Below are positions 35,698 through 53,975 of a DNA stretch of 64,000 nt, one piece after another. A program made the position numbers and the translations under genes. The notes below the pieces were generated by a model. That model was not told the origin of the DNA. It saw nothing but the letters and a program-made list of their open reading frames with translations, and did no database searches. How positions within the stretch are numbered: the first letter of the stretch is position 1; the number at the start of each line of letters is the position of its first letter. Origin of the DNA: Pseudomonadota bacterium (GTDB taxonomy: Bacteria > Pseudomonadota > Gammaproteobacteria > CALCKW01); contig JBCCUP010000001.1 in assembly GCA_039196715.1 (NCBI GenBank), positions 124,001 through 188,000 on the forward strand, written 5' to 3'.

Positions 35698-36336
35698 TCA
35701 GCCCATACCCGAGCTGCGCGCACGCAGGATGAGCCGGGCGCGGCTGTTGACATCGAAGGCCCGCATGATGTGTGACACGTGGCTTTTCACCGTGCCCTCC
35801 GCGATGCCAAGCGCCGCCGCGATCTCCGCGTTGCTCTGACCGCCGAGCACGCAGTGGAGCACCTGGCGCCGCCGACGTGAGAGCAGGATCGGCGGGTCAG
35901 CCAGCGGGGGCTGGCCACCGTCGCCGTGTGATGACACCAGCGTCGGGAAATACCGCGCACCTGAAAGCACGGTCTCAATCGCCATCAGCAACGACGGCAC
36001 GGACGCCGATTTCGGCACGAAACCGTCGCAGCCCGCTTCGCGCGTCGCTTCCACATTCGCCGCGGATTCGTCCGCGGCAAAGTGCAACACCACCAACCGC
36101 GCGCACTGGCGCCGCATCGCATCGAGGTACATGGTCTCGCGTTGCCCGACCGGCAAATGGTCCAGCAGCAGCAGGTGATTGGCCGCCCGAGCCAACTGCA
36201 TTCGGGCCTCGGGCAATGCCGGCACGGCGACCACGTGATCGACGGCAACCAGCGACTGGACGGCGGAAGTGAGCGCATCGCGCACGATCGGATGCCGGTC
36301 GACTATCAACACCGACAAACCCACGATTTCTGTCAC
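35698..36336 (-). CDS. LuxR/NarL-type response regulator with altered receiver
   Basis: A 212-residue regulator. The receiver (about 7-120) has Asp13 and the probable acceptor Asp59 (LLLLDHLP) and a Lys in VPKSAS, but the second acidic residue is Arg (VDRHP) and the Ser/Thr switch is replaced (VLHFAAD). The C-terminal helix-turn-helix is standard (LSRRRRQVLHCVLGGQSNAEIAAALGIAEGTVKSHV). GTG at 36336 has AGAGG at eight bases. No histidine kinase is adjacent. It converges on the Mrp operon and diverges from gltA. Confidence 0.88.
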   Translation of the reverse strand: MTEIVGLSVLIVDRHPIVRDALTSAVQSLVAVDHVVAVPALPEARMQLARAANHLLLLDHLPVGQRETMYLDAMRRQCARLVVLHFAADESAANVEATREAGCDGFVPKSASVPSLLMAIETVLSGARYFPTLVSSHGDGGQPPLADPPILLSRRRRQVLHCVLGGQSNAEIAAALGIAEGTVKSHVSHIMRAFDVNSRARLILRARSSGMG

Positions 36337-36824
36337 CGCTGGGGCCTCTCGGACAGCGCACCGCTCGCCTGACGGACGCGCGCGCGCGCGGAAGTCGGCG
36401 TCGCTGTTAGCGCCTCGGAAGGGCTGAATGCTGCGGTGCACAACGACGCTGTTTGCCCCGCACGACGGCAGATCCCCACCGTCACGAAAAACCGGACCCA
36501 ACGACCGGGTCGACGCGAGATGGTGCGAGATATTGGCATTTTTGCGTGAATTCCTGAACGTTCGGCACTATAGCAATGACCAATACAGATGATTATGCGA
36601 CGTTTTCATCGACAAACCGGGAATTTCCGGCAAGAATTCTGCGAGTCATCTGAGTCACGACGCTCGCCGATCCGCCGCCACCCGGCGGTTTGCGGGCCAC
36701 CGGCAGGGTCTTTCAGCGTGACGGTTTTGCTGCGGGTGCGCAAAGCACTCACCACGACGGCTTCACGCCGCGCCGGGGCGCAGCACCCTGTCGAACCAAT
36801 CACAGCCAACGTCGAGGAATACGC
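36337..36824. other. Divergent intergenic region, regulator and gltA
   Basis: About 490 bases upstream of both the LuxR-type gene and gltA. It contains a (CG)7 tract (36377-36390), then an AT-rich stretch near 36530-36620 that is the best place for the gltA promoter (for instance TATAGC at 36570). No ORF longer than noise is supported. The gltA leader would then be some 200 bases. Confidence 0.5.
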
Positions 36825-39691: not shown

Positions 39692-40911
39692 GGCATGGAT
39701 CCGAAGAGGTCCTTGACCGACGCCACCGCAGCGACCAGCGCGTCGACATCGGCCGTGTCGTTGTAGAGTGCGAAGCTCGCGCGCGCCGTCGCATCGACTC
39801 CGAGGGCCTGCATCAACGGTTGGCAACAGTGGTGACCGGCGCGAATGGCCACGCCCTGTTCGCCGGCGATCTGGCCGACGTCGTGCGGGTGCACGTCGTC
39901 GAGATTGAACGAAACGATGCCGTGGCCACTCGACGGCGACGCCATCCCGTACACCGTCACCCCGTCGATGGCCGACAGGGCACTGCGGGCGTGCGCGCTG
40001 AGCTGCGCGACATGCTCCGCCACGGCGTCGCGACCGGCCGACTCGAGGTAGCGCGCTGCTGCCGCCATGCCCACCGCGCCGACGAGGTTCGGCGAACCGG
40101 CCTCGAGACGGGCCGGCAGGGCCGCCCACGCCGGGGTTGCGAGCGTCGCCTGGTCGACCATGCCGCCGCCGACCAGCAGGGGTTCGATCTGCTCGAGCGC
40201 CGCGCGCCGACCGAGCAGCACGCCAACACCGGTCGGGCCCAGCATCTTGTGACCGGACGCCACGAGGAAATCGCAGCCCAAGGCGTCAAACGCCGTGGTT
40301 TGGTGCCCAACGGACTGCGCCGCGTCCACCAGCACGGCCGCGCCAACAGCGCTCGCTTGCTCGCACACGGCAGCGATGGGCGGCGCTTCACCGAGCACGT
40401 TGGAGACAGCGGTCAGCGCGATCATCTTGACGGCGGGGGTCACGGTCGGCATCGACTCGAAGTCGAAACCGCTCGCGTCGCTCAACGGCAGCACCCGAAG
40501 CGTCGCCCCGGTGCGCGCACAGGCACGCTGCCAGGGCAGGTAGTTCGCGTGGTGCTCCATCACACTGACCCAGACCTCGTCGCCGGGCGCCAACCGGGGC
40601 TCAAGCCAACCGGTGGCCACCACGTTGATCGACTCGGTGGCCGAGCGGGTGAAGATCAGCAGGTCGTCAACGCCGGCGCCGAGGAAGGCCGACACCGTGC
40701 CACGCGCGTCCTCGTAGGCGTCCGTGGCACGCTCGGCGGCCGGGTACAACCCGCGGTGGATCGGTCCGTACTCGCGGCCCATGGCGCGTGTGCAGGCCTC
40801 GAGCACGGCGTCGGGCTTCAACGCGGTCGCCGCCGAGTCGAGGTAGTGCAGGGCCGTGTCCGCGCGCAGTTGGGGAAAATCCCCGCGCCAGAGGCTGTTG
40901 ATCTCAGTCAT
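39688..40911 (-). CDS. Second cysteine desulfurase (SufS/CsdA/NifS4-like)
   Basis: A 407-residue group II cysteine desulfurase: HYLDSAATALKP, HRGLYPAAERAT, RSATESINVVA, MEHHANYLPWQ, PLP lysine in ASGHKMLGPTG and the persulfide Cys in RAGHHCCQPLM, which here is followed by another Cys. It is clearly different from SufS at 3571-4815. The ATG at 40911 overlaps the end of the XdhC-like gene by eight bases. In Rhodobacter capsulatus NifS4 sulfurates the molybdenum cofactor held by XdhC, and this gene order suggests the same here (inference). Confidence 0.9.
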   Translation of the reverse strand: MTEINSLWRGDFPQLRADTALHYLDSAATALKPDAVLEACTRAMGREYGPIHRGLYPAAERATDAYEDARGTVSAFLGAGVDDLLIFTRSATESINVVATGWLEPRLAPGDEVWVSVMEHHANYLPWQRACARTGATLRVLPLSDASGFDFESMPTVTPAVKMIALTAVSNVLGEAPPIAAVCEQASAVGAAVLVDAAQSVGHQTTAFDALGCDFLVASGHKMLGPTGVGVLLGRRAALEQIEPLLVGGGMVDQATLATPAWAALPARLEAGSPNLVGAVGMAAAARYLESAGRDAVAEHVAQLSAHARSALSAIDGVTVYGMASPSSGHGIVSFNLDDVHPHDVGQIAGEQGVAIRAGHHCCQPLMQALGVDATARASFALYNDTADVDALVAAVASVKDLFGSMP

Positions 40912-41701
40912 CGGCCGGATCGTCAAGCAACTCACGCATGCGTCGGCCGCTGCCGCCGCGCCAATGCAGGGTGATCTCACTGAGCACACTCAAGGCAATC
41001 TCGGCCGGCACGCGCGCGCCGATGTCGAGCCCGCAGGGCGCCATCACACGCGAGAGCGCCTGGTCGTCGAAGCCCTGATCGCGCAGGTAATCCATCACGA
41101 GTCCGGCACGCTTGCGGCTCGCAATCAGGGAGATCAGCCCGGCCCCCGACGCCAGCGCGCGCGTCATCGACTCGTGGTCGCCCTTGTGCTGCGTCGCGAT
41201 GACGACAAAGTCGCTTTCGTGCGGGTCGAGCTTTGCATAGTCGAGGTCGTCGGTGATGCGCTCGTGGGCATCGGGAAATTTCGCCTCGCTGGCCATCGGG
41301 TCGTTGACGATAACGCGGTGCCCGAGCGCGTGCGCAAAACGGCACAGATGCTCCGCCACCTCACCGTGCCCCATGATCCACACGCAGCGCTGTCTTTGAA
41401 CCGGTTCCACGTACACTCGCATACTCCCGCCACACGGCATGCCCACGCCGAGGACCTCGTCGTCGAGGTCGATGTCGATGATTGTCGTCTGGCCGCTGTC
41501 GAGCGCCTCAAGCGCTGCGTGGCAGGCCGTCGATTCCGCGCAGCCGCCGCCCACCCAGCCGGTCACCACCTGCCCGTCGGCGTCGATGATCGCCTTCGAG
41601 CCGGTCTTCGCCGAGGATGAGCCCTCGACGTCGACGACCGTGGCGACCGCGTACGGCCTGTTGGCATCGCGCAGCGCGCGTAATTGGTCAATGAAATCCA
41701 T
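40904..41701 (-). CDS. XdhC/CoxF-type molybdenum cofactor maturation protein
   Basis: A 265-residue XdhC-family protein: an N-terminal segment with VEGSSSAKTGSKAIID and GWVGGGCAES, a middle Cys block (GVGMPCGGSM), and a C-terminal Rossmann-like part (VWIMGHGEVAEHLCRFAHALGHRV). XdhC proteins bind molybdenum cofactor, help its sulfuration and insert it into xanthine-oxidase-family enzymes. GAGGAG lies eight bases before the ATG. It sits between the MocA-like gene (gap 4 bases) and the cysteine desulfurase. Confidence 0.92.
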   Translation of the reverse strand: MDFIDQLRALRDANRPYAVATVVDVEGSSSAKTGSKAIIDADGQVVTGWVGGGCAESTACHAALEALDSGQTTIIDIDLDDEVLGVGMPCGGSMRVYVEPVQRQRCVWIMGHGEVAEHLCRFAHALGHRVIVNDPMASEAKFPDAHERITDDLDYAKLDPHESDFVVIATQHKGDHESMTRALASGAGLISLIASRKRAGLVMDYLRDQGFDDQALSRVMAPCGLDIGARVPAEIALSVLSEITLHWRGGSGRRMRELLDDPADD

Positions 41702-41705
41702 CAGG

Positions 41706-42320
41706 TCATCTCCTCGTCTCATCGAGGTACGCCCGGTAGTCGTCGGGCGTGTCCAGGTCCTGCAGAATACCCGCGTCGTCGACGGGCACCACCGCCACCC
41801 GGTCCGGGTGGCGTTTGAACAACGTGCGTGCCGACAGCGCCGGGTCGCCGAGCAGCGCGCGACACCAAGCTGCACCGAGCACGCGCGGGTTGCCCCAGGT
41901 GCCCTTGTGCGCGGGCACCCAGGCATCGAAGCCGGGCGACGTCTGCACCGCGGCGTGCAGCGACGCGAGCGTGCTGCGCTGCAGACGCGGCAGATCGGCC
42001 AACATGACCAGCACCGCGTCGGCGTCGTGCACCACGGCACGCAAGCCGGCGCGCACCGAACTCTGCTGGCCCTCGGCGAACTGCGCATTGATCACGAACG
42101 CCATCCCCTGCTGGCTCACCACCGGTGCACTGTCCTCGATACGGTGTCCGAGGACCACCATCCGAGGGCTCAGCGGACTGTCGGCGAGCAGCGCCACGCT
42201 GCGGGCCAGCAACGCCTGCCCCGCCACGGGCAGCAGCAGTTTGTTGGTTTCACCCATGCGGCGCGATTCCCCCGCCGCCAACAGCACCCCTGCGATCCGC
42301 GTGCCCACACCCGCCCTCAT
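41706..42320 (-). CDS. MocA/MobA-like molybdopterin nucleotidyltransferase
   Basis: A 204-residue NTP transferase: GVLLAAGESRRMGETNKLLLPVAG holds the nucleotide loop and the catalytic Lys, VLVMLADLPRL the metal-binding Asp, and GNPRVLGAAW the substrate loop. It is the MocA type that attaches CMP to the cofactor for xanthine-oxidase-family enzymes; a GMP-adding MobA is the less likely alternative. The ATG overlaps the coxE stop (ATGA). Confidence 0.89.
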   Translation of the reverse strand: MRAGVGTRIAGVLLAAGESRRMGETNKLLLPVAGQALLARSVALLADSPLSPRMVVLGHRIEDSAPVVSQQGMAFVINAQFAEGQQSSVRAGLRAVVHDADAVLVMLADLPRLQRSTLASLHAAVQTSPGFDAWVPAHKGTWGNPRVLGAAWCRALLGDPALSARTLFKRHPDRVAVVPVDDAGILQDLDTPDDYRAYLDETRR

Positions 42321-43567
42321 TTCACCACAGTCAGTTCCGCGCGCCGGCGGGGAGGCATGCTGTTGCCACGCGGGCTGGCGAGCAGTGCGGCGAGTTCATC
42401 GAGGGCCGTCAGGTTGTGCACACTGCGAAAGTCACTGACGTGGGGCAGCAAGGCCCTGGCCCCCTGGGCCAGCGCCTGGTACTTGTCGTACCGTAGCAGC
42501 GGGTTGAGCCAGATCAGGCGTTGGCAGGAGCGCGACAAGCGCGCCGCCTCGACTGCGAGCAACGCACTGTCATCGCGCTCGAGACCGTCCGTGATCAGCA
42601 ACACGACGGCCCCTTGCGACATCACGCGCCGCGACCAGTCACGGTTGAACCGCAACAGGCTGTCGGCGATGCGCGTGCCACCGCTCCAATCGCACACCTG
42701 TTGCGAGACGGTGTCGAGTGCCTCGTCGACATCACGCTGCGCCAGTGCGCGTGTGATGTTGGTCAGCCGTGTGCCGAACACGAAGCTGTGCACGCGCTGC
42801 TGATCGCGGGTGAGCGCGTGTAGAAAGTGCAGCATCATCCGCGAGTATTGCGCCATCGACCCCGAGATGTCGCACAGCGCCACGATCGCCGGTTCGCGCG
42901 TGCGGCGCTGTCGGGTCACCAGTGGAATGCCGCAGTCCGGGCGCCGCGCGGCAGCGCGCACGCTCGCGCGCAAATCGATCTCACGGCCCTTGCCGCTGCG
43001 GTAGCGGCGCGTGCGCTGCGGCGGCATGCCGAGGTCCATCTGCTCGATCACCCGCCGGGCGTCGCGGGTTTCCTGCTGACTCATGGTCTCGAAGTCCATG
43101 TCCTGCAGGGTCTCCTGATCCGACCACGTCAAGGTCGACTGGTGCTCGACAATCTCCTGTTCGGGCACATCCCGACTGTCCGCTGCGTCGGCGTTCAGCG
43201 CATCGGTCAGGCGTTGGTTGAGCTTGTCGGCCTCGTCGGACTTCGGCACCCGCAGTTGCGGCAGCATCATCGACATCATGCGCTCGAGCAGCTGCGGGTT
43301 GCGCCAAAACACGTGAAACGTTTGGTCGAACAGCGGCCGGTGTTCACGGCGGCTGACAAAACACGCAGACAAGGTCCAGTAGAGGTCGCTGCGCGAGCGC
43401 AACCCGACGGCGCCAATGGCGTCGGCGGCGCGCAGCACCGCACCGGGTCCGACGGGCACGCCGACTTCGCGCAGCACACGCGCGAAATGCATCAGGTTGT
43501 CCGCCAGCTGTCCGCCGTGGGTGCCCGGCAAACGCGGCACTCGCCGCAGCTCGGACGACAACGTCAC
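42317..43567 (-). CDS. coxE: CoxE-type VWA domain maturation protein
   Basis: A 416-residue protein with a C-terminal von Willebrand A domain: the MIDAS motif is DISGSMAQYS, followed by SGGTRIADSLL and LLITDGLERDD. The N-terminal half is helical with the RTRRYRSGKGREIDLR block that precedes the VWA fold in CoxE. With CoxD it forms an AAA/VWA chaperone pair that inserts the metal site into the molybdenum hydroxylase. GTG at 43567 with GGAG ahead is taken as the start. Confidence 0.9.
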   Translation of the reverse strand: MTLSSELRRVPRLPGTHGGQLADNLMHFARVLREVGVPVGPGAVLRAADAIGAVGLRSRSDLYWTLSACFVSRREHRPLFDQTFHVFWRNPQLLERMMSMMLPQLRVPKSDEADKLNQRLTDALNADAADSRDVPEQEIVEHQSTLTWSDQETLQDMDFETMSQQETRDARRVIEQMDLGMPPQRTRRYRSGKGREIDLRASVRAAARRPDCGIPLVTRQRRTREPAIVALCDISGSMAQYSRMMLHFLHALTRDQQRVHSFVFGTRLTNITRALAQRDVDEALDTVSQQVCDWSGGTRIADSLLRFNRDWSRRVMSQGAVVLLITDGLERDDSALLAVEAARLSRSCQRLIWLNPLLRYDKYQALAQGARALLPHVSDFRSVHNLTALDELAALLASPRGNSMPPRRRAELTVVK

Positions 43568-43618: not shown

Positions 43619-44533
43619 CTACTGATCACGGGACATTTCCATGCGAATCTGTTCCAGCAAGCTCGCCGCCTCGGTGCCGCGCAGCCGCGCGATGTCGTCC
43701 TGGTATTTCAACAGCGCGCCAACGGATTGGTCCACCACCTCAGGGTCGAGCGACACGACATCGAGCTGGGTCAGGGCGTGTGCCCAGTCCAGCGTCTCGG
43801 CGACGCCCGGCGACTTGAACAGATCGAGCCCGCGCAAACTCTGCACAAAGGCAACGATCTCGCGGCTCAGGTCATCTTGCAACTGCGGCACCTTGCGACG
43901 CAGAATCTCGCGTTCACGCTCGGCGCTCGGGTAGTCGACCCAGTGGTAGAAACAGCGACGCTTGATCGCGTCGTGAATCTCGCGGGTTCGGTTCGACGTG
44001 ACGACGACGATCGGTGGCTGCTGCGAACGCACCGTGCCAAGTTCCGGAATGGACATCTGGAAGTCGGAAAGGACTTCGAGCAGAAACGCCTCAAAGGGTT
44101 CATCGGCGCGGTCCAGCTCGTCGATCAGCAACACAGCCCGGTCGGCACCGTCGGGTTGGAGGGCTTGCAGCAGCGGCCTGCGCGTGAGGAAGCGCTCGCT
44201 GTAGAGCCGCTCGCGCAGCGTGTCGCTGTCGCTCTGCCCTGCCTCAGCCAGGCGGATCTCCATCATCTGTGCTGGGTAGTTCCACTCGTACGCCGCCGCC
44301 GAGACGTCCAGGCCCTCGTAGCATTGCAGGCGCACCAGGGGTGAGCCCGTGGCCGCCGCCACCACCTTGGCGATCTCGGTCTTGCCGACGCCGGCGTCCC
44401 CCTCGAGGAACAACGGTCGGCCCAATTTCAGGCTCAGGAACAGCGCTGTCGCCAGCGCGCGATCGGCCACGTACTCGTGGGCACTCAAAAGCGCCAGGGT
44501 GCCGTCGACGGTGGTCGGTAGCGAAAAAGACAT
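43619..44533 (-). CDS. coxD: CoxD-type MoxR AAA+ ATPase
   Basis: A 304-residue MoxR-class AAA+ protein: Walker A GDAGVGKTE, Walker B AVLLIDELDRAD, sensor 1 VVVTSNRTREIHD and an arginine finger region RRCFYHWVDYP. CoxD-type ATPases unfold or remodel the large subunit during assembly of the Mo/Cu site. The ATG at 44533 follows GGAAA. It lies beyond a terminator after coxM, and coxE follows after 51 bases. Confidence 0.92.
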   Translation of the reverse strand: MSFSLPTTVDGTLALLSAHEYVADRALATALFLSLKLGRPLFLEGDAGVGKTEIAKVVAAATGSPLVRLQCYEGLDVSAAAYEWNYPAQMMEIRLAEAGQSDSDTLRERLYSERFLTRRPLLQALQPDGADRAVLLIDELDRADEPFEAFLLEVLSDFQMSIPELGTVRSQQPPIVVVTSNRTREIHDAIKRRCFYHWVDYPSAEREREILRRKVPQLQDDLSREIVAFVQSLRGLDLFKSPGVAETLDWAHALTQLDVVSLDPEVVDQSVGALLKYQDDIARLRGTEAASLLEQIRMEMSRDQ

Positions 44534-44600: not shown

Positions 44601-45392
44601 TCAGCAGGCTGACACAGCCCTCTTGGCCATCACGGACACCAGATTCGCCCGGTAGGCGGCACTGGCGTGGATGTCCTCATTGAGGTTGCTCGCGTCGACC
44701 GTGAGGCCGTCGAGAGCATCGGCGGCAAAATTGCCACCCAAGGCCTGCTCGAACGCGGCTTCACGGAAGACGCTGGGCCCGGCTCCGGTGACTGCAACTC
44801 GCACACCGTCTCCGGTTTGCGCCACCATAACCCCCACAACCGCGTAGCGCGAGGCCGGGTTGGGGAACTTCCGGTACGCCGCCTTGGCCGGGATCGGAAA
44901 ACTGACCGACACCACCAACTCGTCGTCAGCGAGGGCTGTCTCGAAGACGTCGACGAAGAAGTCGTCGGCAGCAATGCTGCGCGTGTTGGTGTTGACCGTG
45001 GCGTTCAGGCCCACGACGGCCGCAGGGTAGTCCGCGGCGGGGTCGGCGTTGGCGATGGACCCGCCAATGGTGCCACGGTTGCGAACCATCGGGTCGCCAA
45101 TGCCGCTTGCGAGTGCCGCCAGGGCCGGAATGGCCGACTGCACCTCGGCGCTTGCGGCGACCGAGGCGTGGGTGGTCATCGCGCCGACAACAAGCGTGTC
45201 GCCGTCACGGCTGATGCCGACAAGTCCGTCAATGCCGCCGAGGTCGACGAGTGTGTCCGGTGCCGCAAGCATCTGCTTCATGGTGGGCAACAGCGTCATG
45301 CCACCGGCCATGAACTTGCCGTCGTCGGCGCCGTTGAGCGTGGCAACAGCTTCGTCAGCAGAGCCGGGTTTGCGGTAGGTAAAAGCTTCCAT
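44601..45392 (-). CDS. coxM: Molybdenum hydroxylase FAD-binding subunit (CoxM-like)
   Basis: A 263-residue medium subunit. KFMAGGMTLLPTMKQ is the first FAD loop (AGG-T-LLP type) and RNRGTIGGSIANADPAADYPA is the second (TIGGS), both standard for CoxM. It takes electrons from the two [2Fe-2S] clusters of the small subunit and passes them on. GGAG precedes the ATG. It is the last structural gene of the S-L-M order. Confidence 0.94.
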   Translation of the reverse strand: MEAFTYRKPGSADEAVATLNGADDGKFMAGGMTLLPTMKQMLAAPDTLVDLGGIDGLVGISRDGDTLVVGAMTTHASVAASAEVQSAIPALAALASGIGDPMVRNRGTIGGSIANADPAADYPAAVVGLNATVNTNTRSIAADDFFVDVFETALADDELVVSVSFPIPAKAAYRKFPNPASRYAVVGVMVAQTGDGVRVAVTGAGPSVFREAAFEQALGGNFAADALDGLTVDASNLNEDIHASAAYRANLVSVMAKRAVSAC

Positions 45393-45402
45393 GGGGCTCT
45401 CC

Positions 45403-47778
45403 TCAGTTTCCGTTGGCGTTCATGATGGACCACACCTTGTGGGCCGTCACGGGCATGTCGATGTGTTTCACACCGTAGTCGCTGAGCGCGTTGATGACGG
45501 CGTTGACAACAGCCGGCGGGGAGCCGATCGCACCGGCCTCACCACAGCCCTTCACGCCCAACGGGTTGTGCGTGCAGGCGGTCACATGGTTGCTTACTGT
45601 GACGTTGGGCAAGTCGTCCGCACGCGGCATGCAGTAATCCATGTAGCTGCCAGTCAGGAGCTGGCCGTTGTCGTCGTAGACCGCGCCTTCCATCAGCGCC
45701 TGCCCAACCCCTTGTGCCACCCCACCGTGCACCTGACCCTCGACGATCATCGGGTTGATGATGTTGCCGAAGTCGTCTGACGCGTGGAACTCGACGATGT
45801 CGATGACGCCGGTGTCCTTGTCCACTTCGACCTCACAGACGTAGGCACCCGACGGGTAGGTGAAGTTCTTCGGGTCATAGAACGCCGTTTCCTCCAAGCC
45901 GGGCTCGAGCGTCTCGAGCGGGAAGTTGTGCGGCACATAGGCGGTCAACGCCACATCGCCGAAGCCCACCGATTTGTCGGTGCCTTCGACCGAGAACTGG
46001 CCGTCCTTGAACACCACGTCGTCGGCGCTCGCCTCCATCAGGTGCGCCGCGATCTGGCGCCCCTTCAGGACGATCTTGTCGAGCGCGTTCGACAGTGCTG
46101 CACCCCCAACCGCGATCGAACGCGACCCGTAGGTGCCCATACCGAAGGGGATCTTGCCGGTGTCACCGTGGACAATGTCGACGTTCTCGATCGGGATACC
46201 GAGGGTGTCGGACACCACTTGCGCGAAGGTCGTTTCGTGACCCTGACCGTGAGAGTGCGAGCCGGTGAGCACTGCGACCGAGCCGGTCGGGTTAACGCGC
46301 ACCGTGGCCGCCTCGTAAAGACCGGCCCGGGCACCGAGTGCACCGGCGATGTTCGACGGCGCGATACCGCAGGCTTCGATGTAGCAGGCGATGCCGCGAC
46401 CGCGCAGCTTGCCGCGTGCCGCGGACGCCGCCTTGCGGCCATCGAACCCGGCGGCGTCGGTGTTCTCCAGCGCCATATCGAGCGTGGCCTGGTAGTTTCC
46501 GATGTCATAGGTGAGTGCAACCGGTGTGTCGTAGGGAAACGCAGCGGGCTGGATGAAGTTGCGCCGCCGCAACTCGACCGGGTCGATGCCCGTTTCAATC
46601 GCCGCGAGGTCGACCACCCGCTCGAGCAGGTACGAGGCCTCGGGCCGCCCTGCGCCGCGGTAGGCATCGACTGCCACCGTATTGGTGAACACGCCCTTGA
46701 CGTTGGTGTAGATCGCCGGTGTGGTGTAGGTGCCAGCCAACAGTGTGCCGTGCAAGTAGGTCGGTACCGAGGGCGCGAAGGTCGAGAGGTACGCGCCCAT
46801 GTTGGCCAACGTGGTCGACCGCAAACCGAGGAACATGCCGTCGCCGTCCAGCGCGAGTTCAACCGTGGTCACGTGGTCGCGACCGTGCGCGTCGGAGATG
46901 AACGACTCGCTGCGATCCGCTGTCCACTTCACTGGCCGGCCGATGAGCTTGGACGCCACCGTGACGATCGCCTCCTCGGCGTAGTGGAAGATCTTCGAGC
47001 CGAAGCCGCCGCCGACGTCAGGTGCAACGACCCGCAATTTGTGCTCGGGCAGGCTCAGCACGAAGGCGCCCATCAGCAGGCGGATCACGTGCGGGTTCTG
47101 GCTGGTGGTGTAGAGCGTGTGCTCGCCGTTCGCCGAGTTGTAGTCACCGATGGCCGCGCGCGGTTCCATCGCGTTTGGCACCAGGCGGTTGTTGACCAAC
47201 TCGAGCCGGGTCACGTGGGCCGCAGCGGCGATGGCGGCGTCGGTCGCTGCAGCGTCGCCGAGTTCCCAGTCAAAACACACGTTGCTGGGCGTGTCGCTGT
47301 GCACGAGCTCGGCGCCGTCGCTGGCCGCCAACTGCAGGTCGACGACCGCGTCTCCTTCGCTGTAGTTCACATCCACCAGACCCGCCGCACGGCGTGCCTG
47401 CGCCTTGCTCTCGGCCACGACCACCGCCACCGGGTCACCGACGTGGCGCACCGCGCCCTCGGCGAGGATCGGGTGCTTGGGTTCCGTCATCGGGTCGCCG
47501 TTCTTGCTGTGCACCTGCCAACCGCAGGGCAAACCGCCAAACGCACTGAAGTCGTCCGCGGTCAGCACCGCCAACACCCCGTCCGAAGCGAGTGCGGCGG
47601 CGGTGTCGATGCCATTGATCGTCGCGCGTGCGTGCGGCGAGCGCACCATGACGGCGTAGCTCTGGCTCGGCAGGACGATGTCGTCAACGTAGTTGCCGAG
47701 GCCACGCAGGAAGCGGCTGTCCTCGACGCGGGTAACGGATTCTCCGATGCCGGTATTCAGGGGTTCTGCAGCAGCCAT
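45403..47778 (-). CDS. coxL: Molybdenum hydroxylase large subunit, form II CoxL-like
   Basis: A 791-residue molybdopterin subunit of the xanthine-oxidase family. [12 protein letters not shown] (251-262) and [14 protein letters not shown] near the C-terminus with the catalytic Glu are intact. The active-site loop reads AYRGAGR (372-378), the form II signature, not AYRCSFR of true aerobic CO dehydrogenase, so the Cu-binding Cys is absent. Its substrate is therefore uncertain; CO oxidation is not demonstrated for most form II enzymes. The ATG overlaps the coxS stop by one base. Confidence 0.94.
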
Positions 47779-48251
47779 CAGCTCGCCTCCATTTCTTTGG
47801 CACCCGCGAGGATGGAGCGCACGATGTTGGTGTACCCGGTGCAGCGGCAGAGGTTGCCCTCGAGAGCGTCGCGCACCTGTCCCTCGCTGGGCGACGCGTT
47901 TTGCTTGACGATGTCGAGTGCGCTCATGATCATGCCTGGCGTGCAGAAACCGCACTGCAGACCGTGGTTGTCCTTGAACGCCTGCTGCATCGGGTGCAGC
48001 GTCTCACCGTCGGACACGCCTTCGATGGTCGCGACCTCGCAGCCGTCGGCCTGGGCGACCAGCATGGTGCAGGATTTGACCGCGTCCCCGTTGAGGTGGA
48101 TGGTGCAGGCGCCACACTGGCTGGTGTCGCAGCCGACGTGGGTGCCCGTCAGGCGCAGGTGATCCCGCAAGAAGGTCACGAGCAGGGTCTCGTCGTCCAC
48201 TTCCGCCGAGACCGGTTTTCCATTGACCGTGATCGACACATTCACTGACAT
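47778..48251 (-). CDS. coxS: Molybdenum hydroxylase 2[2Fe-2S] subunit (CoxS-like)
   Basis: A 157-residue small subunit with the N-terminal plant-type cluster (Cys41, Cys46, Cys49, Cys61 in [11 protein letters not shown] and SCTML) and the C-terminal four-helix cluster (Cys100, Cys103, Cys135, Cys137 in QCGFCTPG and NLCRCTGY). All eight ligands are present. GAGGAGACG precedes the ATG. It follows coxG and is coupled to coxL. Confidence 0.96.
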
Positions 48252-48308: not shown

Positions 48309-48755
48309 TCAGGCCTCGGCCTCGAGGTGGGCGTCGAGCGCATCAAAAAAACTGGCTATGAGCTTCTTGGTCGTGCTGCCAACCAGCCGCGATCCGACCT
48401 GTGCGAGCTTGCCGCCGACGGCCATGTCGGCGTTGTAGCGCAGCAGCGTGCCGTCATCGACCTCGTCCAACGTGATAGCAGCACCACCCTTGGCAAAACC
48501 CGCGATACCGCCCTGCCCCTGCCCCACCAGGCGGTAGCTCGCCGGCGGACTGAGATCTTCGAGTGTGATGTCGGCGTTGAAGGTGGCCTTGACCGGGCCA
48601 AAGCGGGCGACGACCGTGGCGTTGAGCTCGGTCTCCGAGTGCTGCTCGATCGCTTCGCACCCCATGATGCACGCCTTGAGCACCTCCGGGTCGTTCAACG
48701 CAGCCCAGACGGCCTCCCGCGGTGCCTTGACGACACGCTCCCCCACGATCTCCAT
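48309..48755 (-). CDS. coxG: CoxG-type SRPBCC protein
   Basis: A 148-residue CoxG-family (SRPBCC/Bet v1-like) protein: VVKAPREAVWAALNDPEVLKACIMGCE at the N-terminus, FNADITLEDLSPPASYRLVGQGQGG in the middle and a C-terminal helix. CoxG anchors the aerobic CO dehydrogenase to the membrane; recent work links it to quinone transport for this enzyme. It is the first gene of the minus-strand operon, directly behind the divergent promoter region. The ribosome site is weak. Confidence 0.91.
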   Translation of the reverse strand: MEIVGERVVKAPREAVWAALNDPEVLKACIMGCEAIEQHSETELNATVVARFGPVKATFNADITLEDLSPPASYRLVGQGQGGIAGFAKGGAAITLDEVDDGTLLRYNADMAVGGKLAQVGSRLVGSTTKKLIASFFDALDAHLEAEA

Positions 48756-49023
48756 GCATGCACTCACTGGTTGTGTTGGCGGTGTGCGGCACCGTGCCCT
48801 GTCGACGGCAATACCGCCCCGCCCTGCGGCAGGGAAGATCGCACCCAGGCACGACGTCGTTTTGATATCTGCACAATACCGCATATTTGAGCAAATTATA
48901 TTGTCCAATAGGTCAAGATACGATGCCAGTGCAGCGTGTCTGACGGCCGCGACGCGACAGCGTGTTTCCGACCGCGCAAGCGAGGTGGTAGGGTGCGGAG
49001 GCCTGTCCCCGGCCAACCCGACC
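48756..49023. promoter_or_regulatory. Divergent promoter region, coxG and FIST gene
   Basis: A 268-base gap with a marked AT-rich island (48860-48925) in otherwise GC-rich DNA. On the minus strand a perfect TATAAT (48895-48900) could be the coxG -10 element, with a leader of about 130 bases. TTGA and TCAA flank it (48887 and 48912) as a loose inverted repeat. This is where regulation of the molybdenum hydroxylase by the neighbouring two-component system would be expected. Confidence 0.5.
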
Positions 49024-50202
49024 ATGCCCAGCGCGCGACGAATCAACCCCAGTGGCTTGTGCACCGTGTGGTCCTTCGACGGTGACGGCGAGGGCTTCGC
49101 CCGGGACGTCGCCATGGAGTGCAGCCGCACCTCGTACAGCCTGGTGCTGGTGTTCTACTCTCAACACCGCTACCCGCCAGCGGCGTTCCTGGCTGCGCTG
49201 GCCGCCGCGCAGGACGTGCCGATCGTCGCTGGCTGTTCGACTGCCGGGGAGTTGACGCCCGAGGGGCTCCAAGAGAACAACATCGTCGCGGTGCTGTTTC
49301 CCTCGGCACATTTCGAAGCCGATGCGCTGCTGATCGAACAGGTCGCCGACCGCGGCATGGAAGACATCGCCAACCGGGTGGGCCAGTTGCGCGAACGCTT
49401 CGCCGGCGGGCGCCGCGATGGCGTGTTCGCCCTGAGTGTGATCGACGGCTTGTCGCGCTCCGAGGAGGCGGTGACCACGGCAATCAACCGCGCACTGGAC
49501 GGCATCGTGCTGCTCGGCGGGTCCTCCGGTGACGACGCGTACTTCGAGCATACCACTCAGGTGTTCGGCGCCTCCGACTACAGCGGCGCAGCGATCGTCA
49601 TCATGATGCGCACCGACTTGCGATTCGAAGCCTTCTCGACCAAGAATTTCGTCGCCACCGAGGCGAAGCTCGTTGTGACCGAGTGCGACCCCAGTGAGCG
49701 CATCGTCTACGAGTTCAACGGGGTGCGCGCTGCGGAGGAGTATGCGCGGCTGGTCAACGCCGACCCGAACACCTTGAGTGCGACGACCTTCGCGTCCCAT
49801 CCCCTGGTCGTGCGGGTCGGCGGCGAGTATTTCTGCCGCGCCATCAGCCACGTGTACAGCGACGGCTCGCTGCGGTTCTTCTGTGCCATTGACGAGGGCA
49901 TCGTGCTGACCCTGTCAGAACCGGTCGCCATGGTCGAGACCACCGCCGAAACCCTCCATGGTGTGATGCAACGGATCGGTCCACTCGACACCATTCTCGG
50001 CTTTGATTGCGCCTACCGACGCACGGATGCACGCAACCGCGGGCTCTACAACGCCATGTCGGAGCTCTACCAGACGTTCAACTTCGTCGGCTTCGCCACG
50101 TATGGCGAGCAGTTTCACGCCATGCACATCAACCAGACCTGCACAGGCATCGCCTTTGCTGCGCCAGCGGGCGACGGTACGCCTGCGGCCGACGTCCGAT
50201 GA
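49024..50202 (+). CDS. FIST-domain sensor protein (NosP-like)
   Basis: A 392-residue protein with FIST_N (about 20-215: VLVFYSQHRYPP, PIVAGCSTAGELTPEG, LGGSSGDDAYF) and FIST_C (about 220-375: GVRAAEEYARL, SHPLVVRVGG, GFDCAYRR, GLYNAMSELYQTFNFVGFATYGEQF). No membrane segment or signal. In Pseudomonas the FIST protein NosP is a haem protein sensing nitric oxide and acts on the kinase NahK; here the stop overlaps the start of a NahK-like kinase gene, so the same pairing is likely. Haem binding itself cannot be read from the sequence. Confidence 0.9.
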   Translation: MPSARRINPSGLCTVWSFDGDGEGFARDVAMECSRTSYSLVLVFYSQHRYPPAAFLAALAAAQDVPIVAGCSTAGELTPEGLQENNIVAVLFPSAHFEADALLIEQVADRGMEDIANRVGQLRERFAGGRRDGVFALSVIDGLSRSEEAVTTAINRALDGIVLLGGSSGDDAYFEHTTQVFGASDYSGAAIVIMMRTDLRFEAFSTKNFVATEAKLVVTECDPSERIVYEFNGVRAAEEYARLVNADPNTLSATTFASHPLVVRVGGEYFCRAISHVYSDGSLRFFCAIDEGIVLTLSEPVAMVETTAETLHGVMQRIGPLDTILGFDCAYRRTDARNRGLYNAMSELYQTFNFVGFATYGEQFHAMHINQTCTGIAFAAPAGDGTPAADVR

Positions 50203-51617
50203 CCGGCGGCACCGACGCACTCGATCGTCTGACGCGCGAGAACGCGCGCCTTCGCAAGATCAACCGCGCCCTGATGAACCAGGTGGAACGCTCCTACAAC
50301 CAGCAGGGCAGCGCCTTCTCGCTGTTCCAGACCGCGATCGAACTCGAGGCACAGATCAAGCAACGGACCATCGAGCTGACCACCACCCTGCGCAGTCTGG
50401 AAAACAGCAACCTCGCGCTGCAGCAGGCCAAGGAAACCGCCGAGGAGGCCAACCGATCCAAAACGCGCTACCTCGCCGCCGCGAGCCACGATGTCCTGCA
50501 ACCCCTGAACGCGGCGCAATTGCTGCTGTCCTCGCTGATGGAATCCGACGTCGACGCCCACGGCCGGCAACTCGCCGCGCAGATTCAGCGCTCGCTGACC
50601 AACATGGAGGAATTGCTGCGCACCCTGCTCGACATCTCGCGACTCGATGCGGGAGTCGTGCAACCGACGTTCGAGCCGATCGAGCTGCATCGGTTGTTCG
50701 CTGACCTGCACGGGGAGATGGCGCCCCTTGCAGCGCAACGCAATCTGGTATTGCGCTCCAGGCGCACGGACCTGCGCGTGGTTTCCGACCGCACCATCCT
50801 GCGGCGTATCCTGCAAAACATCCTCGCCAACGCACTTCAGTACACCAACACGGGCGGTGTTCTGCTGGCTGCACGCCGGGCGGACGACACCGTACGCATC
50901 GACGTGGTCGACACCGGCGTCGGCATTGAGCAAAGCGAAATCGGCACCGTGTTCGAGGAGTTTCACCGCGGTCGACACCGCGGCGAGTCGACCACCCAAT
51001 CGGAGGGGCTCGGGCTTGGCTTGTCGATCGTCAACCGGATGGTCAAAACGCTGGACCACGAGTTGGTCGTGCGCTCGCGTGTCGGTGTCGGCAGCACCTT
51101 CAGCTTGCGGGCCGAGCGCTACCACGGAGCCACACCGCTGAAGCGAGTTCAGCCCGTGCCACGCAGCGCCGCGGTGCAACAGAACCGCGGCCGACGCGTG
51201 CTGCTGATCGAAAACGACCCGGCCATCGTCGAGGCGATGTCGACGCTGTTCCAGCAGTGGGGCTACCACATCGACAGCGCGTGTTCGGCCACCACAGCGG
51301 AACAGACGGCCGCGCGCTTCCAACCGGAAATCATCGTCGCTGACCAGCACCTTGACCACAACGAACTGGGACTCGACGCCATCGTGGCGTTGCGCCAGCG
51401 CATGCAACACCACCTGCCCGCGGTCATCGTCACGGCCGACCCATCGCCGTCGCTCGCGCGCGCGGCACAGCAGGCTCACATTGAAATTATGCCCAAACCG
51501 GTGAAGCCGGCCCAGTTGCGTGCGCTGCTGAACCACCTGAGCGGGCGCGCCGCGCAGCTTCAGGTCGTTGCGTCCTCGACGCCGGACCGAACGGATTCGG
51601 GTTCAGCTCGGAGCTGA
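50199..51617 (+). CDS. NahK/ErcS'-type hybrid histidine kinase
   Basis: A 472-residue soluble hybrid kinase. A coiled coil (about 5-88) leads to HisKA with phospho-His97 (YLAAASHDVLQPLNAA), a HATPase_c domain (N box around 207-211, DTGVGI 238-243, GLGLGLSIV) and a C-terminal receiver (330-450) with Asp340, acceptor Asp382 and Lys433. No PAS or membrane part, so the input is probably the FIST protein. RYLAAASHDVLQPLNAA is typical of NahK and ErcS'. The ATG overlaps the FIST gene stop. Confidence 0.92.
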   Translation: MTGGTDALDRLTRENARLRKINRALMNQVERSYNQQGSAFSLFQTAIELEAQIKQRTIELTTTLRSLENSNLALQQAKETAEEANRSKTRYLAAASHDVLQPLNAAQLLLSSLMESDVDAHGRQLAAQIQRSLTNMEELLRTLLDISRLDAGVVQPTFEPIELHRLFADLHGEMAPLAAQRNLVLRSRRTDLRVVSDRTILRRILQNILANALQYTNTGGVLLAARRADDTVRIDVVDTGVGIEQSEIGTVFEEFHRGRHRGESTTQSEGLGLGLSIVNRMVKTLDHELVVRSRVGVGSTFSLRAERYHGATPLKRVQPVPRSAAVQQNRGRRVLLIENDPAIVEAMSTLFQQWGYHIDSACSATTAEQTAARFQPEIIVADQHLDHNELGLDAIVALRQRMQHHLPAVIVTADPSPSLARAAQQAHIEIMPKPVKPAQLRALLNHLSGRAAQLQVVASSTPDRTDSGSARS

Positions 51618-52346
51618 ATCCGGTAGGGGACCTGCCGTTGCCGGGGTGTCGGCTTCGAAGAACTCATCGCCGAGGCGGGAGACCAGAATGACCGCCTGGG
51701 TTCGGTTGTACACCTTGAGCTTGCGAAGAATTTCGGACACGTGGGCCTTCACCGTGGTCGCACCCACACCGAGCTCGTGGGCAATCTGTTTGTTCAGCAG
51801 CCCTTCACGCAGCATGTTGAGCACGCGCAGCTGCTGCGGTGTGAGGCTCGCAATGCGCTCGATGATGTTGCGCTTCTCATCGTCGATGATGCTGTCGTCC
51901 CCGACTGTGTAGCCCGCGGGGGTGTACACCTCCCCACGCAACACGCTGCAGACCGCGTCCACCAGCGCGTGTTTGCCCGCCGATTTCGGGATGTACCCTG
52001 CCGCACCAAAGGACAATGCCTCGGCGATCACCGTGTCCTGCTCAAATCCGGACACGACCAGCACCGGCAGTTTCGGGTACCGGCCGCGCAGCTCAAGCAG
52101 CGCATCGAAGTGTTGGACGCCAGGCAGGTTGAGGTCCAGCAGTGCGATGTCCACGCTGCCATCGCCAGCGACAGCGAGCTCGGCCAACCCGCTTTCGAGA
52201 CTGTGCGCTTCGCGTGTTCGCACCTGTTCAAAGGACGCCCGCAGCGCGCTGGTGAGCGCGTCGCGAAAGAGCGGATGATCATCGATGACCAGCACACTCA
52301 CGTTGCCGGTCCACGCATCCACCACGGCATCTGACGTCGTTTGCAT
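51603..52346 (-). CDS. LuxR/NarL-type response regulator
   Basis: A 247-residue regulator. Receiver residues are complete: Asp22/Asp23 (VIDDHP), acceptor Asp71 (LLDLNLPG), Ser in VVSGFE and Lys in YIPKSAG. The C-terminal DNA-binding domain is LTPQQLRVLNMLREGLLNKQIAHELGVGATTVKAHV. The ATG at 52346 is used. It is convergent with the hybrid kinase gene and the two 3' ends overlap by 15 bases, so it is the natural output of that kinase, as in AgmR/EraR-type systems. Confidence 0.9.
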   Translation of the reverse strand: MQTTSDAVVDAWTGNVSVLVIDDHPLFRDALTSALRASFEQVRTREAHSLESGLAELAVAGDGSVDIALLDLNLPGVQHFDALLELRGRYPKLPVLVVSGFEQDTVIAEALSFGAAGYIPKSAGKHALVDAVCSVLRGEVYTPAGYTVGDDSIIDDEKRNIIERIASLTPQQLRVLNMLREGLLNKQIAHELGVGATTVKAHVSEILRKLKVYNRTQAVILVSRLGDEFFEADTPATAGPLPDSAPS

Positions 52347-52946: not shown

Positions 52947-53975
52947 GTGTCTGATGAGGATCTGCTCGCCGGTCTGGACAACGGCGATTTTGACACGCTC
53001 GTTCTCGAGAGCGACCAGCGCTTTGCCGCTCGCATCGATGCCGTCATCGCGGCGCTGCTGAAGCGCTCGCGTGGCTACGGGTCGCTCGAGAGTGTCATCG
53101 AAGCCGTCGATGTGCTGCGACAGCGGGTCAACCCTCAGGCCTTGCCGACAGACAGCTTGCACGCCTGGGCTGCAACCCTGCGCACCGGGTCCATGGCCGC
53201 GCAGCGCTTTCAGGACCCGCGTTGGACCGAGTGGTTCGAAGAGTCATGGCAACTCGCACTGCAGTTGGGTGACTTCGATGTGTTGCACGACCTGTGCGGC
53301 GACCTGAGCGCGTTGCAACCGAGCCAGACCGATCGGTCCGTCTCGGACCTCCGCACACGGGGCGCGATTGCCGGCTTTGCCCTCGCCAACCTCGCCGGCG
53401 ACCAGACGCGGCAACTCAAGGCACTTGCACGCAACACCGACCGCCTGTTGTGGAGCGGTGATGTGCAGGCCGCCAAGCGAACCCTGCAACACCACAACGT
53501 CAAACAACGGTTGATGGCGTCCGACATGCCGCTGTCAGACTACTGCCTCATTCTCGATTCACTCTGCGCTGTGGCGGTCGCCACCGGCGAGCTGCAAGAG
53601 GCCCTCGAACTCGCACTGGAGCTCGAGCGGCACTCGAGTGACCTGCCGATTTACCAGGCACACGCCTACTTCCACATCGGCATGATTGCGGTCAGGCGCT
53701 TCAACTTCCAGAAAGCACGCACCTGTATCGAGCGCCTGGACGACTTGTCCCTGGTGTTGGGTTCAGTCGACGCGGCGGAGCAAATGCGCTGCGAATTGCG
53801 AAACGCCTACAACACCGGTCGCACACCCGAGCCGATCAAGGCGAGCAACCCGGACGCCAGCAAATTCACACCCCAGTCCCTGGCCAAATTGGCAAGCGGC
53901 ATCGACAGCGCCGTGGCGCGTCACCAACCCGCACTGACCAAGATCCTGCCGCGGTTCTCAAAACCCACCGCCTGA
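52947..53975 (+). CDS. Hypothetical helical-repeat protein
   Basis: A 342-residue soluble protein, almost entirely alpha-helical by composition, with TPR-like pairs around 205-280 (ELQEALELALELERHSSDLPIYQAHAYFHIGMIAVRRFNFQKARTC in two or three units). No signal peptide or catalytic motif. GTG at 52947 with AAGG ahead is the start. I do not recognise the family. Upstream is the response regulator, downstream a convergent transporter operon; neither suggests a role. Confidence 0.72.
   Translation: MSDEDLLAGLDNGDFDTLVLESDQRFAARIDAVIAALLKRSRGYGSLESVIEAVDVLRQRVNPQALPTDSLHAWAATLRTGSMAAQRFQDPRWTEWFEESWQLALQLGDFDVLHDLCGDLSALQPSQTDRSVSDLRTRGAIAGFALANLAGDQTRQLKALARNTDRLLWSGDVQAAKRTLQHHNVKQRLMASDMPLSDYCLILDSLCAVAVATGELQEALELALELERHSSDLPIYQAHAYFHIGMIAVRRFNFQKARTCIERLDDLSLVLGSVDAAEQMRCELRNAYNTGRTPEPIKASNPDASKFTPQSLAKLASGIDSAVARHQPALTKILPRFSKPTA

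Follow-up and report, generated by a model that had tools for sequence, protein, structure and literature searches.

A FIST, histidine kinase and LuxR-type regulator cassette recurrently paired with form II cox operons and its probable role as their dedicated regulator

Closest described systems

Among the closest described relatives of the sensory system considered here are NosP-NahK of Pseudomonas aeruginosa and NosP-NosK-NosR of B. pseudomallei, in which a solo FIST-FIST_C protein is encoded beside a soluble histidine kinase. We analyzed a 64,000-nucleotide stretch of a gammaproteobacterial genome (assembly GCA_039196715.1, contig JBCCUP010000001.1, positions 124,001 to 188,000; hereafter, the window), which encodes a protein pair of the same layout together with a LuxR-type regulator, next to an operon for a form II carbon monoxide (CO) dehydrogenase-like molybdenum hydroxylase (cox). 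The B. pseudomallei kinase NosK, which is controlled by NosP, resembles the window kinase in having no recognized sensory domain (PMC12570481), whereas the window system differs from the NosP systems in its output, a LuxR-type DNA-binding regulator, and in its molybdenum hydroxylase neighbor.

Two further groups of systems are comparable. The FlhRS/orf2 system of P. denitrificans and the AfdRTS/RfdRTS systems of R. sphaeroides are encoded by operons for a regulator, a T protein and a kinase that govern an oxidizing enzyme (PMC4776306); in the window, the order is instead FIST-kinase with a convergent regulator gene, and the proposed target is form II cox. The MxtR/ErdR (CrbS/CrbR) systems combine a LuxR-type regulator with a hybrid kinase, as in the window; however, CrbS is fused to a transporter domain of the SLC5 type, and its description includes no FIST partner (PMC5715377).

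Form II operons are defined by the S-L-M gene order and the AYRGAGR motif (PMC13203968). Isolates with form II "CO dehydrogenases" alone often consume no CO (PMC13203968). Known regulators of CO-oxidation genes, such as CoxC (MHYT-LytTR) and RcoM/CooA (PMC11347149, PMC9670170), have another domain make-up, and domains of these types were not found by Pfam in the three regulatory proteins of the window or in the coxG to coxE products. In the literature examined, we found no description of a regulator of form II operons, no paper linking FIST or NosP to coxL or CO dehydrogenase, and no report of the cassette.

Organization of the locus

The first-pass annotation of the window had placed the sensory genes immediately beside coxG across a shared promoter region of 268 bases. 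Translation and Pfam matches located each of these elements where it had been placed within 48756-52346, and the length of the shared region is exact. The features are as follows.

48756 to 49023, no strand: 268-bp intergenic region from which coxG and the FIST gene diverge (FIST gene start at 49024)
49024 to 50202, plus strand: FIST-FIST_C protein, 392 aa, candidate sensor (Pfam FIST 128.5 bits (FIST N), FIST_C 74.5 bits)
50199 to 51617, plus strand: hybrid histidine kinase, NahK/ErcS type without PAS domains, 472 aa (N-terminal segment, HisKA, HATPase_c, Response_reg)
51603 to 52346, minus strand: LuxR-type response regulator (Response_reg and GerE)
48309 to 48755, minus strand: coxG (PF06240, COXG, 121.2 bits)
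47778 to 48251, minus strand: coxS, 2Fe-2S subunit (Fer2/Fer2_2)
45406 to 47763, minus strand: coxL, molybdenum subunit, form II (AYRGAGR motif in the translation)
44601 to 45392, minus strand: coxM, FAD subunit (FAD_binding_5, CO_deh_flav_C)
43619 to 44533, minus strand: coxD, AAA ATPase (AAA_5)
42317 to 43567, minus strand: coxE, VWA protein (VWA_CoxE 204.9 bits)
40904 to 42088, minus strand: XdhC/CoxI-type maturation protein (XdhC_C, XdhC_CoxI)

The kinase gene start overlaps the FIST stop via ATGA, and the regulator gene is convergent with the kinase gene. Behind coxG, the operon continues as coxS-coxL-coxM-coxD-coxE plus the XdhC/CoxI gene. Both marks of form II, the coxSLM order and AYRGAGR in CoxL, are present, as in described form II operons (PMC13203968); unlike in those operons, coxG is placed first. 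The top scores of CoxM and CoxS are on glyceraldehyde dehydrogenase subunit models. The same genome encodes a second CoxL-like molybdenum subunit (G000 contig C75:8835-11099, L067), which is 44% identical to the window CoxL.

Recurrence of the FIST-cox linkage

The association of the NosP/NahK-like pair and the LuxR-type regulator with a form II molybdenum hydroxylase operon, proposed from the window alone, recurs in other genomes. The gene-neighborhood survey suggested with that proposal was carried out on 398 genomes across the phylum, linkage being scored as a FIST gene within 11 kb of coxL; since the FIST-cox association was found repeatedly, the neighborhood is not unique to this genome. 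A FIST homolog is present in 78 of the 398 genomes and a coxL match in 69. Both occur in 20 genomes from 12 genera, and they lie within 11 kb of each other in 15 genomes from 7 genera, whereas 0.13 linked genera would be expected by chance (P = 1.1e-11, assuming independent genera and random positions). The FIST-coxL distance is 1.3 kb in the window, 0.9 kb in all eight genomes of the alphaproteobacterial genus g369, about 2.1 kb in g435, g443, and g414, 4.4 kb in g413, and 10.4 kb in g362. A further sample of 385 genomes, from the class of G522, yielded 12 new FIST loci; one of these, in G1058, lies beside coxL and adds an eighth linked genus. Thus, the pairing is far above chance, yet it is a minority habit and not the rule for FIST modules.

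An uncultured Granulosicoccaceae bacterium from the same genus, represented by a metagenome-assembled genome (G001, locus L009), likewise has FIST and kinase genes divergent from coxG-S-L. The identities to the window proteins are 75/67//80/87/94% for FIST-kinase//coxG-coxS-coxL, a comparison that covers FIST, part of the kinase, coxG, coxS, and coxL, as the G001 contig ends inside the kinase gene. A chimeric or unique neighborhood arising from an assembly accident was ruled out by the matching arrangement in this independent genome.

Another member of the genus, G003 (99% complete; locus L076, 10733-11478), encodes a CoxL with 91% identity, with coxS and an ortholog of the window gene o52947 as neighbors, and yet FIST, kinase, regulator, and cognate coxG are all absent together from this locus; the nearest coxG-like proteins of G003 show 48-49% identity and are encoded on other contigs. 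In G467 (L118, 4514-9538), a coxG copy is divergent from a response regulator-FIST-kinase module, and the coxSLM locus lies elsewhere and shows no coxG. Because the loss in G003 is joint and the G467 coxG sits with such a module, coxG and the regulator genes seem to travel together. The gene o52947 itself (window positions 52947-53975, plus strand) encodes a 342-aa protein adjoining the regulator, for which Pfam and NCBIfam gave no match; its G003 ortholog is only 52% identical, against 91% for coxL.

Repeated origin of the pairing

Phylogenetic trees were built by quick searches with Shimodaira-Hasegawa-like approximate likelihood ratio supports only (given as SH below). The FIST tree unites the proteins of the window, G001, and g369 in a cox-linked clade (SH 95; SH 97 in the reduced set) and places the cox-linked FISTs of f223 in a separate one; a grouping of the window protein and those of f223 is rejected by the approximately unbiased (AU) test (p-AU 2.7e-4). 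For coxL, the window sequence clusters with f223 (SH 99), and the AU test rejects a clade of window plus g369 (p-AU 1.7e-59). A single ancestral cox-FIST pairing was also considered and discarded, as one clade of all linked FISTs is rejected with p-AU 2.5e-8. At least 8 changes of the FIST-linked label are forced on the coxL tree. The gene order differs as well: FIST-kinase with a convergent regulator in the window (and in g369 where the regulator was found), and response regulator-FIST-kinase in f223, the latter as in FlhRS/AfdRTS. Since the FIST and coxL histories disagree, the cassette appears to have met cox more than once.

These data bear on a simpler explanation of the neighborhood, namely that the module governs biofilm formation, cyclic di-GMP (c-di-GMP) or motility and lies beside cox by chance or through shared transfer. 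Pseudomonas NosP-NahK indeed acts through HptB/RsmA on biofilm and swarming (PMC12997753), and the majority of FIST modules are not cox-adjacent. However, the pairing involves at least two lineages on the FIST side and at least two on the coxL side, mostly in divergent orientation across a common promoter region; linkage is seen in 7 of 12 genera against the 0.13 expected; and the regulator belongs to the DNA-binding proteins rather than to the c-di-GMP enzymes. We therefore regard hitchhiking as unlikely. The repeated pairing of the sensing system with the operon in unrelated bacteria suggests instead that it acts as an on-off switch for the enzyme.

Cassette proteins and curated families

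All three regulatory proteins score below the cut-off of their best models, and thus they are kin to NosP, NahK/ErcS, and ErdR, yet fall outside these curated families. The best NCBIfam model for the FIST protein is NosP (NF041558), with 353 bits under a cut-off of 450. It has the FIST + FIST_C architecture of NosP in Pfam, and its gene overlaps that of a NahK-type kinase, as expected of NosP. Six other cox-linked FISTs score 364-441 bits on the same model, under the same cut-off, which is passed by two Pseudomonas-like FISTs (590) and one unlinked alphaproteobacterial FIST (474); labels such as Pseudomonas-like and Rhodobacteraceae-like are our own inferred assignments. The window genome also encodes a second, distant FIST-domain protein (contig C43:16945-17499, L002).

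The kinase best matches the NahK/ErcS C-terminal domain model near_NosP_CTERM (386.6 bits, just short of the 400 cut-off); on the full-length NahK/ErcS' model with PAS (NF041831, cut-off 1500) it reaches 301 bits, over the C-terminal half only. In contrast to NahK, PAS domains are absent from the window kinase, as they are from the kinases of G001, G522, G542, and G464, which have the same layout, and of the unlinked G389; they are present in the cox-linked f223 kinases and in the Pseudomonas-like kinase. All compared kinases have in common an N-terminal segment (window residues about 8-84), a candidate FIST contact site. The best named model for the regulator is ErdR (NF041830), with 191.7 bits against a cut-off of 390. 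As read from the translations, the phosphorylation residues and kinase boxes appear intact.

Within the FIST protein, C71 and C329 are invariant in 56 of 56 relatives and H368 is kept in 55 of 56, which makes these residues candidates for ligand or metal contacts. The predicted FIST structure has a mean pLDDT (predicted local distance difference test) of 61, with residues 361-370 below 50, and sequence comparison matched the protein to none of the solved structures.

Candidate elements in the divergent region

The 268-bp region was scanned and contains no match to a sigma-70-type promoter and no terminator. Two elements were delineated.

48873 to 48884, plus strand: ACAATACCGCAT, identical in three congeners, including G003, and present at no other locus compared
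48900 to 48916, plus strand: ATTGTCCAATAGGTCAA, near-palindrome with the core CCAATAGG, tentative operator of the regulator

The first element, ACAATACCGCAT, is also present in G001 and in the coxS-o52947 gap of G003. As it is kept in G003, which is without the regulator genes, it is likely part of the cox promoter itself, independent of the regulators. The second element, at 48900-48916, is tentatively proposed as the operator of the LuxR-type regulator; its G001 counterpart, ATTGCCCAATAGGCCAA, is also a near-palindrome. The pattern CCAATWGG, picked after inspection, is found at 6 of the 58 loci in the 300 bp that precede the regulator operon, compared with 0.55 for randomly drawn stretches (none of 500 draws attained 6), and its extended form CCTATTGGN{0,2}CAA has two occurrences in the 4.95-Mb genome, one of them at this locus.

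The g369 promoters carry different conserved blocks, and one of these, ATTGTACTTTCGGTC, has no occurrence in the window. The ErdR/CrbR ACTU motif was considered as the operator and set aside, since its published spacing (GAC-N4-GTC type) is unlike that of the g369 block TACTTTCGGTC, as judged by eye.

Proposed mechanism

We consider it likely that the three regulatory proteins, namely the FIST protein, the hybrid kinase without PAS domains, and the LuxR-type regulator, work together as a single local sensory cassette that acts mainly on the divergently transcribed form II cox operon. The sensor would be the FIST protein, as the system contains no further domain of known sensory function. It would bind the kinase, probably via the conserved N-terminal segment, and alter its autophosphorylation; phosphate would then pass from the kinase to the regulator, which would bind the divergent region and thereby control how strongly coxG-S-L-M-D-E and, probably, the genes of its own sensor are transcribed.

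The G003 locus, which keeps a highly similar coxL and lacks the three regulatory genes and coxG as a block, supports this assignment. Furthermore, no PQQ (pyrroloquinoline quinone) alcohol dehydrogenase scores over the cut-off in the window genome, so that the usual neighbor of such modules is absent. Several observations weigh on the other side. The hybrid kinase has its own receiver, which often implies a relay through an Hpt protein, and the adjoining genes include none for an Hpt. The case for the candidate operator is weak: CCAATWGG was chosen post hoc, only 6 of the 58 upstream regions contain it, and the g369 promoters lack it. Finally, FIST modules and form II operons do not depend on each other, as most FIST modules lie away from cox (63 of 78 genomes; 11 of 12 new loci) and many form II operons lack a neighboring FIST gene. 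On balance, the cassette is probably a recurrent, dedicated regulator of form II cox and a variant of the NosP/FlhRS kind of system.

Candidate signals

The identification of the FIST protein as a nitric oxide (NO) sensor, made in the first-pass annotation, was not borne out, as all seven cox-linked FISTs that were scored fail the NosP cut-off; NO sensing is thus rejected as an established identity. The accompanying statement that the Pseudomonas pair controls an oxidizing enzyme is unsettled: a 2026 review ties NosP-NahK to biofilm and swarming and leaves the ethanol-response part unclear (PMC12997753).

True NO sensing, by which a haem-bound NosP-type FIST would convey NO through the kinase and the regulator to the molybdenum hydroxylase, is a possible but doubtful reading. 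NosP is the closest curated family (353 bits), the FISTs of P. aeruginosa, L. pneumophila, and B. pseudomallei are NO- or haem-sensing kinase partners (PMC12570481, PMC11237717, PMC8846402), and H368 is nearly invariant among FIST relatives. On the other hand, the seven cox-linked FISTs scored stay below a cut-off that the Pseudomonas-like ones pass at 590, FIST relatives also sense haem or belong to formaldehyde regulons, the literature examined does not establish which residue ligates the haem, and no Cu-type nitrite reductase scores over the cut-off in the window genome (a search for the Cu type only). A haem-based gas or haem signal is our first guess.

The second guess is a carbonyl or one-carbon (C1) compound handled by the enzyme, sensed as in FlhRS/AfdRS, with an aldehyde or C1 substrate or product of the form II enzyme as the cue. 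The afdR-T-S and rfdR-T-S genes of R. sphaeroides and flhR-orf2-flhS of P. denitrificans have the regulator/T/kinase composition and govern formaldehyde or C1 oxidation (PMC4776306, PMC8879981). On a plasmid of Sulfitobacter sp. S223 (L158, 6165-15321), a response regulator-FIST-kinase module lies between a PQQ-dependent alcohol dehydrogenase gene and pqqEDCBA. The glyceraldehyde dehydrogenase-like matches of CoxM and CoxS and the invariant C71 and C329 point in the same direction. However, adhI expression with formaldehyde is unchanged in an rfdT mutant (PMC4776306), and afdT, rfdT, and orf2 are presumed to encode FIST proteins from gene order and the GfdT name; we hold carbonyl or C1 sensing to be as tentative as that of NO. 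Less probable still, and clearly speculative, is that the cox-linked FISTs constitute a separate haem-sensor branch detecting CO (or another ligand of the enzyme), which through the kinase and the LuxR-type regulator would make form II cox respond to CO by a new route, different from those of CooA, RcoM, and CoxC.

Whichever the signal, the independent placement of the sensor cassette beside the operon by several lineages would mean that a specific cue governs the enzyme, and identifying this cue would point to the role of the form II enzyme. With the cassette, a family of sensors known chiefly for its part in biofilm control would also gain an output through DNA binding. A second LuxR-type regulator is encoded in the window at 35698-36501 on the minus strand; it is unlinked to the FIST-kinase-regulator system, and its receiver domain is weak, scoring below the cut-off.

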